Source: Pseudoalteromonas sp. NC201 (GTDB lineage Bacteria > Pseudomonadota > Gammaproteobacteria > Enterobacterales > Alteromonadaceae). From it: a DNA stretch of 64,000 bases. The notes under the pieces are model-generated. The model made no database searches. It had not been told where the DNA came from and worked only from the letters and a program-made list of their open reading frames with translations. The translations under genes were made by a program, and so were the position numbers. The first letter of the stretch is position 1, and each line of letters opens with the position of its first letter. Below are positions 59,874 through 64,000 of this stretch, in pieces. The stretch lies in contig NZ_CP022522.1 of the NCBI RefSeq assembly GCF_002850255.1, positions 3,822,501-3,886,500 of the forward strand, given 5' to 3'.

Positions 59874-60734
59874 ATGGCAAACTTAGAAGCAAACCGTTGG
59901 TTTACAGAAATTAGCGACCGCGATGGCAGCGCTTTTTCACTTAGAGTCAACAAAAAATTAGACGAAATCCAATCACCTTTTCAAAAAGTAGAAATGTTTG
60001 AAACGACGGATTTTGGTAACCTGATGATCATTGACGGTTGCACTATGGTGAGCACGCGTGAAAACTTTTTCTATCACGAAATGATGAGTCACCCGGCGCT
60101 ATTCTCGCACCCAGCACCTACAAATGTTGTGATCATTGGCGGCGGCGACTGTGGCACATTGCGTGAAGTATTAAAGCACCCTGGCGTTGAAAAAGTAACT
60201 CAGATTGATATCGACGAAGTTGTGACGCAAATGTCTTTGAAATACTTCCCTGAGCTTTGTGAGTCTAATAACGATCCTCGCGCAACTGTAATGTTTGATG
60301 ATGGCATCAAATTTATGCGTGAAGCCGAAGCAGAGTCTATCGACGTTATCATCGTTGATGGCACCGATCCTGTAGGCCCTGGTGAAGGTTTATTCAACCA
60401 CGCATTCTACAAGAGCTGTTTAGCAGCGCTTCGCACTGGTGGTATCATGATCCAGCAAAGTGAATCACCACTGATGCACATGCCGTTGCTACTAGAAATG
60501 CGCGATGCAATGTTGGAAGTAGGCTTTGTTGATCTGCAAACCCTGCCTTTCCCACAGCCGATCTACCCAAGCGGTCTGTGGTCAGCAACGATGGCGCGTA
60601 AAGATGAAAAGTTTGCCGGATTCCGCGAGCAAGATGTTGATAACGCAACATTTGATACTGAGTACTACAACACAGGTATTCATAAAGGAGCATTAGCAAC
60701 ACCTAACTTTATGAAGCGTGCTTTCGAAAAGTAG
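59874..60734 (+). CDS. speE: Spermidine synthase-family aminopropyltransferase
   Basis: A 286-aa SpeE homologue that moves the aminopropyl group of decarboxylated SAM to putrescine. Family motifs: ENFFYHEMMSHPALF, the nucleotide loop VIIGGGDCGTLREVLKH (a Cys in place of the usual Gly after Asp), the catalytic-site DGTDPVGPGEGLF, and the C-terminal polyamine part. The start is ATG 59874 or GTG 59862; neither has a clear ribosome binding site. The last 70 bp of the gene recur 2.8 kb downstream and may be an attachment site. Confidence 0.92.
   Translation: MANLEANRWFTEISDRDGSAFSLRVNKKLDEIQSPFQKVEMFETTDFGNLMIIDGCTMVSTRENFFYHEMMSHPALFSHPAPTNVVIIGGGDCGTLREVLKHPGVEKVTQIDIDEVVTQMSLKYFPELCESNNDPRATVMFDDGIKFMREAEAESIDVIIVDGTDPVGPGEGLFNHAFYKSCLAALRTGGIMIQQSESPLMHMPLLLEMRDAMLEVGFVDLQTLPFPQPIYPSGLWSATMARKDEKFAGFREQDVDNATFDTEYYNTGIHKGALATPNFMKRAFEK
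60664..60733. repeat. Left copy of a 70-bp repeat inside speE (attL-like)
   Basis: The last codons of speE up to the stop codon. The copy at 63507-63576 matches 65 of 70 positions, with the final 35 or so bases identical. This is the hallmark of an element integrated at the 3' end of a gene, keeping the gene intact. Confidence 0.75.
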
Positions 60735-61116
60735 ACCGAATCAAAACATAAACTTAATTGTTAAAGTGTAGTAGCTCATATCTGCTCCTACAGCCTTGAT
60801 GGTTCGGTTAATATTTCACCTGACCTGAAGTTATGAGCGAACAACAGACGTTCGCTCTAGCTCGTTTTTGGACAAAAACGTTTTCGGTCGCCGGCTGTAT
60901 TAGATGACTTTCGCATAAAAATTTCTATGGGCTAGCGCCGCCAGCACGCGCGGCTTTGTAGTGAAGGTGAAGCCGCAACAGAAAAGCCGTCGCTGTGCCT
61001 GACCTTGTTATGACTACTTCGCTCGCTTGATGACACATGTTTCAGACCTAACAACGACATTGGTAGCTCGTTTTGCCATAACTGCTCAAATATATCTTTT
61101 TGCAAAGGCAACAACT
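60735..61116. other. Hairpin-rich gene-free stretch after speE
   Basis: No gene is seen. Hairpins: a 9-bp stem with one mismatch (60767-60792), a perfect 8-bp stem GAGCGAAC/GTTCGCTC (60835-60857), a 7-bp stem CGTTTTT/AAAAACG (60863-60880), and GCGGCTT/AAGCCGC around 60951-60975. Several may be transposition-associated palindromes. Confidence 0.55.
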
Positions 61117-61260
61117 TTAGAGCGCCTTGCCCAGAGATGAGCCAATAATTACTCCAAAACTCATGATAAGAGCTGCCGCAACAAATGCCGCTAACACAAT
61201 CAGGCCCGTTTTCTGGGCTTTTGGTACTGAGCTCCACCAATTTTTAATTTCATTAATCAT
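61117..61260 (-). CDS. Small predicted membrane protein, 47 aa
   Basis: Begins MINEIKNWWSSVPKAQKTG and ends GSSLGKAL, with one membrane segment (about residues 19-40). A good Shine-Dalgarno (AAGGAAG, 5 nt) precedes the ATG at 61260 and the frame ends at TAA 61117. No family recognised. It lies inside the decayed region, but the clean start signal and hydrophobic pattern suggest it is real. Confidence 0.6.
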   Translation of the reverse strand: MINEIKNWWSSVPKAQKTGLIVLAAFVAAALIMSFGVIIGSSLGKAL

Positions 61261-61691
61261 AAATCTTCCTTAAAACAACCGCACGCGAAGTTACTTAGCC
61301 TTAACATTTTAGTATTTATGCGACACGCAGTTTGTGTTGCATAATCACTTGTTGGACTGAGCCGCTACCTGCTCGGTGTGACAGAGTTGGTGTTGTTTAT
61401 GCTATAGCTTACTTAGAAAAAATAGGCTTTTTGGAGGCTCTCACTTTCCTAGCTAGTGTTATGTAAGCTTTCCCTGCATTGCTCAGCGCTTATTATGTAT
61501 TCATTACACCTAAATTTGCCTTAATAAGCAATTATATTTTTTACTCGTACAGAGGCAGCTAGCCTGAGCAATTAAGCAGGTTAACTAATTGATTTTGAGC
61601 AGCTATCGAGCTGCTAACTCGTTCGGTCTACTTTGGTCGTTGTTGCATCTAACTTGAATGCGCCAATTAGCCGCAAGATACCTGCTCGACA
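61261..61691. other. Gene-free stretch before the recombinase remnant
   Basis: No supported gene. One palindrome, AGCAGCT-atcg-AGCTGCT (61598-61615), stands out; the rest is unremarkable. Confidence 0.5.
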
Positions 61692-61787
61692 ATGCTGCAA
61701 GGCCAATGCTGTATCAGCGTCACGTTTTCTGTCTTCGCCTTCTCAACTTCACCTGTGTGTGATTCTTGTGACTTTATTAATGCTAAC

Positions 61788-61955
61788 TTTCGCTTGCGAC
61801 ATGCATTAGCTACTCATTTACTACAAAGTGGTGCAGATATTAGAACCGTGCAAGCTCAACTTGGTCATTCCGATGTGAAGACAACGCAAATATATACTCA
61901 TGTTTTACAGCAAGGCGCAAACGGTGTTGTTAGCCCTTTGAGCAAAATTTTCTAG
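61788..61955 (+). pseudogene. Tyrosine recombinase C-terminal remnant, IntI-like
   Basis: About 55 residues matching the catalytic C-terminus of integron-type tyrosine recombinases: [20 protein letters not shown] with the box II Arg and His, [15 protein letters not shown] with the active Tyr, and the tail [12 protein letters not shown]. The N-terminal three quarters are missing; the open frame upstream (from 61692) has no similarity that I can see. A partial gene, so not active. Confidence 0.8.
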
Positions 61956-61963
61956 CTTGTTTT

Positions 61964-61993
61964 GGTGTAAATCGCTGAGGTGTAAATCGCTGA
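61964..61993. repeat. 15-bp tandem repeat left of the transposase unit
   Basis: GGTGTAAATCGCTGA occurs twice without a gap (61964-61978 and 61979-61993); the second copy continues into the 31-bp direct repeat and, with the following CACCC, forms an imperfect palindrome GGTGT...ACACC. Confidence 0.7.
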
Positions 61994-62012
61994 CACCCAC
62001 CACTAATTTGCA
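61982..62012. repeat. Left 31-bp direct repeat of the transposase unit
   Basis: Matches 29 of 31 bases of 63389-63419 in the same orientation. It lies 61 nt before the transposase start codon and includes GTAAATCGCTGACACCCA. Confidence 0.75.
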
Positions 62013-62072
62013 CCTTCCAAATATACCGCCTACGCTTTAATTCTGCACTCAAAGGATTGAGGAAACCAAACT

Positions 62073-63044
62073 ATGGCAACTGCCCGTAAAAGACAAATCA
62101 GTTTAACCGACACCAAATACTACCACTGTATCTCCCGTTGCGTAAGGCGTGCGTTTCTGTGCGGTGAAGATAAATTTACCGGAAAATCATACGAACACCG
62201 TCGTGATTGGGCTGAAGAAAAGCTATTGATGTTGGGGTCTGTGTTTTGTATTGATGTCTGTGCTTATGCGGTGATGAGTAATCACACTCACATTGTTTTA
62301 TATGTTGATGATAAAAAAGCTAAGCGCCTGTCGGATAAAGCGATTGTAATACGGTGGCACAAGTTGTTTAAGGGCAATTGGATAAGCCAAAAGTTTACTG
62401 AAGGTGAGCCACTCAATGAGTCGGAGCAGTTGATACTCAATGAGCATGTCGCCAAATACAGAGAAAGGCTCGCAGACATTAGCTGGTTTATGCGAGTACT
62501 CAACGAAGATATCGCCCGCCGAGCAAATAAAGAAGATAATTGCGCAGGTCGATTTTGGGAAGGAAGATTTAAATCCCAAGCATTACTGGATGAAGCCGCA
62601 CTGGCTGCTTGTCTCGCTTACGTAGACTTAAACCCCATTAGAGCCAAAATCGCCGCAACGCCTGAAACCTCAGACCACACCAGCATCAAAAAGCGCATCG
62701 ACCACGCTAAACGGGGTAATCAACCAAAAAGTCTACTACGTTTTGCTGGCAGCCCACGAAAACGTATGCCTAAAGGCCTGCCTTTTGAGCTCAAGTCTTA
62801 TATCGAATTGGTTGAACTCACAGGCCAATGTATTCGCGCCGACAAACGAGGCTATATTTTTGAGTCACAACCCATACTCACTCGACTCAATATAGAGCCT
62901 GAGAACTGGATAAAACTCACTACGCAGTTTTCTCGGGTATTTCACGGTGCCGTTGGTCGAGAGCGAACAATAACCGCTTACTGCGAAACACTGCAAAAAC
63001 GACGACGGACAAACCTAACAAACTGCGAGCGCTTGTTGGCTTAG
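62073..63044 (+). CDS. REP-associated (IS200-like, Y1) transposase
   Basis: A 323-aa Y1-family transposase of the REP-associated type, which acts on single-stranded DNA hairpins. The N-terminal YYHCISRCVRRAFL and the HUH-type metal motif NHTHIVL (His71, His73) are clear; the conserved CAGRFWEGRFKSQALLDE and AYVDLNPIRAKIA follow. At the place where I would expect the catalytic Tyr the sequence reads SWFMR (138-139 Trp-Phe); Tyr129 is a possible substitute. GAGGAAACC precedes the ATG. Full length, so possibly functional. Confidence 0.85.
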   Translation: MATARKRQISLTDTKYYHCISRCVRRAFLCGEDKFTGKSYEHRRDWAEEKLLMLGSVFCIDVCAYAVMSNHTHIVLYVDDKKAKRLSDKAIVIRWHKLFKGNWISQKFTEGEPLNESEQLILNEHVAKYRERLADISWFMRVLNEDIARRANKEDNCAGRFWEGRFKSQALLDEAALAACLAYVDLNPIRAKIAATPETSDHTSIKKRIDHAKRGNQPKSLLRFAGSPRKRMPKGLPFELKSYIELVELTGQCIRADKRGYIFESQPILTRLNIEPENWIKLTTQFSRVFHGAVGRERTITAYCETLQKRRRTNLTNCERLLA

Positions 63045-63187
63045 CAAAACTCACATTCTCAATTCTAGAATTTCTTACTGTTGTATTTGCAGCGCGTTGT
63101 CGTGCGCGATAACCCAGTTTTAGTGTAGAGATACGCTTGAGCGCTAAAAAATAACCTATCGATAAACGTTTTTGACCAAAATTATTG

Positions 63188-63252
63188 GAGTGTTTACATG
63201 CTTTTTTACTTCACTTCCTCAACTTTGATGTTAATAGTGATGGGTGTCGCTT
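63188..63252. repeat. 65-bp diverged direct repeat, copy A
   Basis: Aligns without gaps to 63424-63488 at about 82% identity (roughly 12 mismatches), sharing the run CTTTTTTACTTCA and GTTAATAG. Meaning unknown. Confidence 0.65.
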
Positions 63253-63388
63253 ATTTTCCTAGGTTGTCGAATATCTCGACTACCTTGTACTTAAACGTAA
63301 TGTGTCGCCTAAAACACAAGCGACAGCGTTAAATGCATTATCTTTTCTGTATAAGCAAATAATTAAACAGGATTTGTGTCCTAATCTT

Positions 63389-63419
63389 GTAAATCGCTGA
63401 CACCCAACACTAACTTGCA
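63389..63419. repeat. Right 31-bp direct repeat of the transposase unit
   Basis: Matches 61982-62012 with two mismatches, in the same orientation, about 345 nt after the transposase stop codon. Confidence 0.75.
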
Positions 63420-63423
63420 ATGG

Positions 63424-63488
63424 AAGTGCTTTCATACTTTTTTACTTCATCTCCTCAGCTGTGGTGTTAATAGCGATAGGTGTCACTT
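63424..63488. repeat. 65-bp diverged direct repeat, copy B
   Basis: Partner of 63188-63252; it starts 4 nt after the right 31-bp repeat and ends 18 nt before the displaced speE tail. Confidence 0.65.
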
Positions 63489-63506
63489 GTTTTTCTTGTT
63501 TTCATC

Positions 63507-63576
63507 ACTACAACACAAGTATTCATAAGGGGGCATTAACGACACCTAACTTTATGAAGCGTGCTTTCGAAAAGTA
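63507..63576 (+). pseudogene. Displaced speE 3' end (attR-like copy)
   Basis: Encodes, in the speE frame, YYNTSIHKGALTTPNFMKRA followed by FEK and a stop. It matches the true speE tail at 65 of 70 bases; three of the five changes are in third codon positions, so it diverged as a coding sequence before being cut off. The upstream part of the gene is absent. Confidence 0.85.
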
Positions 63577-63586
63577 ACGCACTGCC

Positions 63587-63615
63587 GAGGAGCATATTTT
63601 GCTCCTCAGTAATTT
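63587..63615 (+). terminator. Terminator after the displaced speE tail
   Basis: A 7-bp stem GAGGAGC/GCTCCTC with a 7-nt AT loop, then AGTAATTTTATTT. It lies 10 nt after the displaced stop codon and is probably the ancestral speE terminator. Confidence 0.7.
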
Positions 63616-63671
63616 TATTTCCTTGCTCCGCAAAGCTATATTTATCTTCTAATTTAAAAGGGAGATTTAAT

Positions 63672-64000
63672 ATGCAGATAGGACTAAGAACATTCATACT
63701 TTCGTTTGCCTTGATCACGCCAGCCGCTCACAGCAAACCTCAAGTGGAAAGCCCAGCGCCAACCAAAGAAGAGCTCATATTCAATTCAGGCCATATAACT
63801 TCAGTGGATCAGATGAGCCCTAATCACGCCAAAATCACATATAAATTAGCAAAGCAACTCATCGCCAATCCAAACATTTCTAAAACTGAGGAACTGATTA
63901 GGCTCTCTGAAAAAGTCTCATTGACTGAGAAAAAGATAGCAGAAGAATCCATCAAGATATGTCAAGACCTCATCGACTATGACATTTCCGATACGCGCGC
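63672..64000 (+). CDS. Unknown exported protein, 3' end cut by window edge
   Basis: At least 109 residues are visible. A signal peptide (MQIGLRTFILSFALITPAAHS) is followed by a helical, charged sequence (KITYKLAKQLIANPN, then EELIRLSEKVSLTEKKIAEE). GGGAG lies 7 nt before the ATG. No family recognised from this part. Confidence 0.65.
   Translation, partial: MQIGLRTFILSFALITPAAHSKPQVESPAPTKEELIFNSGHITSVDQMSPNHAKITYKLAKQLIANPNISKTEELIRLSEKVSLTEKKIAEESIKICQDLIDYDISDTR

Follow-up and report, generated by a model that had tools for sequence, protein, structure and literature searches.

Does the repeated end of a gene mark the site where an element was integrated, or can it be left behind in another way? 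The question is raised by speE (spermidine synthase) in a 5.4-Mb Pseudoalteromonas genome, of which one 64-kb stretch (G000:C1:3822501-3886500), hereafter the window, was analysed. The window was found to contain an intact speE, the 3′ end of which recurs downstream in the same orientation as direct repeat D2 (copy 1, 60664-60733; copy 2, 63507-63576; spacing 2843; interval between the copies 2773 bp). The two copies were identical at 65/70 positions (93%), including all of the final 35 bases, and copy 1 consisted of the last 70 bases of speE minus the last letter of the stop codon. D2 was the sole source of repeated plus-strand 30-mers in the window (six overlapping 30-mers, all at offset 2843), and no inverted 30-mer matches were found within it. 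An earlier note on this DNA had described the recurrence with five mismatches, its identical end of about 35 bases and the bracketed 2.8 kb with an integrase remnant and a transposase; all of this was confirmed, the integrase piece being placed in the open reading frame (ORF) 61692-61955 and the transposase in ORF 62073-63044. The same note had suggested a possible integrated element of the tyrosine-recombinase island kind. Such islands and prophages are known at the 3′ ends of genes (e14 in icd; others at guaA, prfC and tRNA genes), where the gene stays whole and its end is duplicated. The speE gene was likewise whole with a duplicated 3′ end, whereas no island integrase and no repeat around an intact element were found here. 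What fills the interval in the window was found to be a wrecked chromosomal integron of the kind carried by the Pseudoalteromonas piscicida group, and the integrase remnant is a C-terminal piece of IntI. Copy 2 appears to be an old speE end, which may well have been displaced by recombination between alleles.

The locus was compared in a tight group of eight genomes (the window's own genome G000 with G014, G070, G116, G088, G028, G089 and G080), which were 97-99% identical over speE (tail excluded) together with the upstream stretch and 95-97% identical in the DUF2057 gene. The genomes G084 and G090 stood at 88-90% in the speE stretch, both against the group and against one another. Long flanks were obtained for 20 of 60 genomes plus 7 further group members or outgroups, all 80 speE loci were used for the comparison of speE 3′ flanks, and the genus set contained 108 genomes, with one genome per species.

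The interval between speE and DUF2057 is the chromosomal integron of this group. Between the two copies of the speE end, G070 was found to contain 11.3 kb and G116 6.0 kb of small ORFs, mostly on the minus strand, separated by attC sites in the form of imperfect hairpins running from TAACAA to GCGTTA. An attC covariance model (R1), trained on 11 of the attC sites found at these loci, was searched against 16 sources. With the 11 training sites counted among them, 33 hits were found at E<=0.05, 30 of them on the cassette strand and 28 distinct after removal of the overlap between L192 and L245 (nine in G070, eight in G116, five in G088, three in G090, two in G080 and one in G014). No attC was found at this threshold in the window, G028, G089, G084 or three other species. 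In G070, G116 and G088 the attC sites lay between small cassette ORFs of the same orientation, and intI was found on the plus strand with the cassettes on the minus strand, in the divergent layout of integrons. The intI gene marked the right-hand end of the array, far from speE. In G088 it was of full length (323 amino acids; TIGR02249, 462 bits against a cut-off of 265), followed by about 120 bp and then by the terminator common to the convergent DUF2057 gene.

Pfam was run on 31 array ORFs of G088, G116 and G070; the RAYT-like ORF, one duplicate G088 ORF, two plus-strand G070 transposase ORFs and ORFs of less than 70 amino acids were set aside. These 31 ORFs were found to contain a few families of unknown function and GDPD, LprI, HTH and transposase domains. 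No integrase domain was found among them, and the only integrase was IntI in its usual place. With attC cassettes present, no second integrase among the 31 array ORFs and no repeat around the intact integron, a tyrosine-recombinase island is not the preferred reading. Two adjacent transposase-domain ORFs (DDE_Tnp_1_6 and DUF772), probably one split transposase, were also found inside the cassette array of G070 (L190:5989-7527). Across the genus, at least 83 of the 108 genomes were found to match an integron integrase above the curated cut-off; in several there was more than one such match, and some of these integrases were broken by stops or shortened.

The window itself was found to contain no working integrase but two disjoint IntI pieces. 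The C-terminal part (TIGR02249, 95.5 bits, profile positions 263-314 of 315) precedes the N-terminal part, so that a single intI was not simply interrupted. The left part of the window up to 61971 matched G028 at 97.4%, and G028 continues from there into the normal intI flank. The right part (63261-63900) matched G116 at 99.2%. To judge by the order of its parts, the 2.8-kb interval is a chimera and not a single inserted unit, and the window locus would be a recombinant of G028-like and G116-like alleles joined at the transposon.

The flank of copy 2 was found to differ from that of copy 1 and to resemble the flank of speE in another species. In the window, the sequence after copy 2 reads ACGCACTGCCGAGGAGC..GCTCCTC, and in G090 speE itself runs directly into ACGTATTGCCGAGGAGC..GCTCCTC. 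Against the 80 speE 3′ flanks, that of G090 was the best by far (score 21, next 9), and this score was reached by 0/5000 shuffles of the G090 flank. Strong hairpin folds were found in both (z -5.4 after copy 2; z -4.9 in G090). Since the flanks match and both form strong hairpins, copy 2 with its hairpin is, on this sequence comparison, taken to be the old 3′ end of speE. In the earlier note, the five differences between the copies had looked like allelic coding divergence, as if the element had brought its own speE tail. Allelic divergence fits for three of them (repeat positions 23, 26 and 35), which occupy third codon positions at sites that vary among the intact speE genes of relatives, whereas the other two (positions 12 and 33) would alter the amino acid if copy 2 were coding and look like drift in a dead copy. 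Copy 2 of G014 matched the window's intact speE end at 70/70 positions.

The direct orientation of the copies would also be accounted for by a local tandem duplication, named in the earlier note as an alternative, and a separate tandem duplication with a partial speE was found in G088. For copy 2 such an origin is extremely improbable and was rejected, as the 3′ flanks of the two copies are unrelated and that of copy 2 matches the speE flank of another species. The apparent duplication in G088 (L192:5737-7853), which may be an assembly artefact, was located at the same spot, was about 1.5 kb long and contained, besides a duplicate of the first distal ORF, a second, 5′-truncated speE (query bases 232-861).

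Copy 2, its terminator and a gene here called MQIG were found together in G000, G014, G070 and G116, where the same miniature inverted-repeat transposable element (MITE) cuts intI; in G014 a further small part of intI was lost before the MITE. The MQIG gene of the group was found only beside copy 2 in these four genomes (on two contigs in G116), and relatives at 29-32% were found in 3 more of the 108 genomes. Its protein had no match in Pfam or NCBIfam and none in the plasmid collection. In G088, G028, G089 and G080 the 3′ end of intI and its flank were kept, and copy 2, the terminator and MQIG were absent. No direct repeats flanked the integron at speE in any of these four genomes, the intact intI of G088 included.

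This distribution bears on a site-specific integration at the 3′ end of speE, in which a lost recombinase or IntI would have inserted the integron as cargo into speE-terminator-MQIG-DUF2057. Copy 1 would then be attL and copy 2 attR, and G088, G028, G089 and G080 would later have lost attR and MQIG. Such an event would leave speE whole, duplicate its 3′ end and keep the last 35 bases identical, and it agrees with the nearly empty site of G084 and the native-type terminator after copy 2. It is considered doubtful, as no flanking repeats were found where the intI-side flank survives (4/4), no second integrase was found among the array ORFs, and the left boundary of copy 2 adjoins the MITE and not the integron's own right end. 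Repeats were also lacking elsewhere: no direct repeats at E<=1e-4 were found at four other integron loci (about 54 kb searched), nor at two more (G070 C2 and G084 C2) in the roughly 2.7 and 0.4 kb before the contig ends. The proposal that integron insertion generally leaves gene-tail repeats was rejected on these six loci. In G090, cassettes were found to the right of speE, its terminator and a GGDEF gene, beside DUF2057, with an IS91 fragment in the expected place of intI. If, as we infer, the two G090 contigs are linked, the integron was probably at the locus before the group split and seems older than the duplication. A genuine attachment site at the 3′ end of speE, with the whole 'sedentary' integron having once moved as a unit through IntI or a lost partner, is regarded as unlikely.

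Relatives with empty sites, in which the speE tail joins the terminator at 63587, and with larger islands carrying intact integrases had been expected in the earlier note. G084 was nearly empty, its speE and DUF2057 genes being just 38 bp apart, but its flank differs from that of copy 2. The junction of the speE tail with a relative of that terminator was found in G090, but with cassettes further on. Larger elements were found in G070 and G116 and an intact integrase in G088, but the latter without repeats.

Favoured with moderate confidence is a recombination between integron-bearing and integron-free alleles, with homologous exchange at one end and an illegitimate join at the other, by which the old speE end would have been left behind. 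The integron-bearing version, speE-left end-cassettes-intI-DUF2057, was seen in G088; the integron-free version, we infer, would have been speE-terminator-MQIG-DUF2057. Flanking sequence was observed for both allele types. In one recombination, homologous exchange would have taken place in speE or DUF2057, with an illegitimate join on the other side, located next to the MITE that splits intI and 70 bp ahead of the stop codon in the older speE. The outcome would be a whole speE with a new 3′ flank, and the old tail, terminator and MQIG behind the broken intI. Allele recombination is the most economical account, as a single replacement suffices for the loss of the 3′ part of intI as well as for the arrival of copy 2 with its terminator and MQIG, whereas under site-specific integration each half of the group must have undergone a deletion of its own. 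Later, in the window, an exchange apparently through the RAYT-like transposon would have joined the G028-like left half to the G116-like right half, which would place the C-terminal part of IntI before the N-terminal part.

The proposed pathway is homology-facilitated illegitimate recombination, to which the displaced 3′ genes of the Vibrio type VI secretion system were ascribed by Kirchberger et al., itself as a proposal (excerpts of PMC5361080). As in the effector-immunity arrays described there, the incoming allele would be anchored by homology, the far end would be illegitimate and the old downstream segment kept, whereas the anchor here is a housekeeping enzyme gene and the insert is an integron.

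Comparison of the group members points to exchange of the segment between lineages, and to continued exchange, for parts of it only. Left of copy 2, G000 and G116 were identical at 119/119 positions, and over the final part of MQIG G000 and G014 were identical at 346/346, against 96-98% in the flanking genes, these being the best pairs.

Several points weigh against the allele recombination. No integron-free parent was found in the 108 genus genomes, MQIG being confined to the side of copy 2, and copy 2 was not found elsewhere among the best five candidates per genome, the scope within which this holds. Some 12 bases that separate copy 2 from the end of the MITE are without explanation, no microhomology was identified at the join, and the resident and the donor allele are indistinguishable. 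Between G000 and G014, only 106/119 positions agreed left of copy 2, and 318/324 in the first 324 bases after it.

The place of copy 2, which begins about 12 bp beyond the MITE in G000, G070 and G116 (slightly further in G014), would also suit a capture in which the MITE, the RAYT-like transposon or an IS91-type element carried the speE tail and neighbouring DNA by one-ended transposition, and fragments of IS91 and RAYT-like type are present in the interval. Such a capture is judged quite improbable, as the roughly 670 bp after copy 2 (old terminator and MQIG) end at the common DUF2057 terminator and no transposon end is found there. A stretch of this length up to that terminator is the expectation for a native speE-DUF2057 interval.

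Integrons beside a single housekeeping gene are already known, and the present one has an apparent, instructive false att site. The sedentary chromosomal integrons of Xanthomonas are located downstream of ilvD (excerpts of PMC12444791). These resemble the present locus in the IntI-family integrase, the attC array and the one conserved housekeeping neighbour across species, as well as in the frequent inactivation of intI by frameshifts, stops and large deletions (same excerpts). They differ from it in that the neighbours here are speE and DUF2057 with intI far from speE, and in the displaced gene tail behind the broken intI in 4/8 group members. Shewanella integrons are found in varied genomic contexts, although some share a neighbouring gene, trpA for example, and homologues of SonintIA were reported in P. 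piscicida (excerpts of PMC9229058). They likewise adjoin protein genes, and the excerpts of that account mention no tail duplication. Integron integrases are known in Pseudoalteromonas (excerpts of PMC2536512), and no report of an integron at speE was found among the matches listed in the open-licence literature. This locus bears on how sedentary integrons settle beside particular housekeeping genes and get lost: within a single species group and its close kin, one integron is intact, others are broken, one site is nearly bare and one is a chimera. It suggests that a 3′-end repeat, usually taken as an att site, may be an old gene end displaced by allele recombination. If this is true, caution is due in repeat-based calling of islands.

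Table 1. Parts of the speE-DUF2057 locus in the window (window coordinates).
Feature	Position	Strand	Remarks
speE (spermidine synthase), intact	59874..60734	+	PF01564, PF17284; end 60664-60733 is copy 1
Left-end stretch adjoining speE	60734..60945	.	matched in all 8 group members, whole or over the first 151 bases
Possible decayed attC of last cassette (TAACAA ... GCGCTA), weak	60933..61010	-	read from sequence alone
ORF of predicted 47-aa membrane peptide	61117..61260	-	inside stretch shared with G028, 97.4% match
IS91-family element, end fragment	61302..~61797	.	match 61302-61812 overlaps 3′ end of IS91 transposase CDS, NZ_CP011027.1
intI 3′ piece (C-terminal part)	61798..61961	+	97.6% to the intact G088 intI
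RAYT-like transposon unit, limits approximate	61981..63257	+	transposase ORF 62073-63044
intI internal piece of N-terminal domain (VVEYLDYL...)	63261..63387	+	99.2% to G088 intI over 63261-63385
MITE-like non-autonomous copy, splits intI	63388..63501	.	composed of both ends of RAYT-like unit; repeats D1, D3
Displaced copy of speE 3′ end (copy 2)	63507..63576	+	repeat D2, flank comparison
Old speE terminator hairpin	63587..63607	+	related to hairpin directly after speE in G090
MQIG... gene, 191 aa	63672..64000, on to window coordinate 64247	+	passes window end

The left-end stretch was found to contain the present terminator-like hairpin (60835-60857, fold z -4.6) and pieces of dispersed genus repeats. 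Two overlapping families of dispersed repeats occupied 60758-60884 and 60861-60941, and the 212-bp stretch was matched at least once in at least 57 of the 108 genus genomes. The candidate attC next to it was not detected by the attC model at E<=0.05, and its full-site fold was no better than shuffles (z -0.96, 30/200 as good); the shifted stretch 60942-61018 gave a fold of z -2.4. The ORF of the membrane peptide is probably the last cassette. The IS91-type stretch was found in G090 to continue into what reads as a Y2_Tnp fragment. The last codons in the translation of the N-terminal intI piece already lie in the MITE, and the same MITE copy was present in G014, G070 and G116. The internal repeats of the interval (82 bp and 32 bp) were found to be the ends of the transposase element. 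The transposase scored 36.6 bits against NF047646, and it is called RAYT-like because this is below the cut-off of 80; no match was found for it among solved structures. Five further near-full-length copies of the unit (88-92%) and shorter pieces were found in the window's genome, and some of the copies were located within a few kilobases of IS91- or intI-like pieces.

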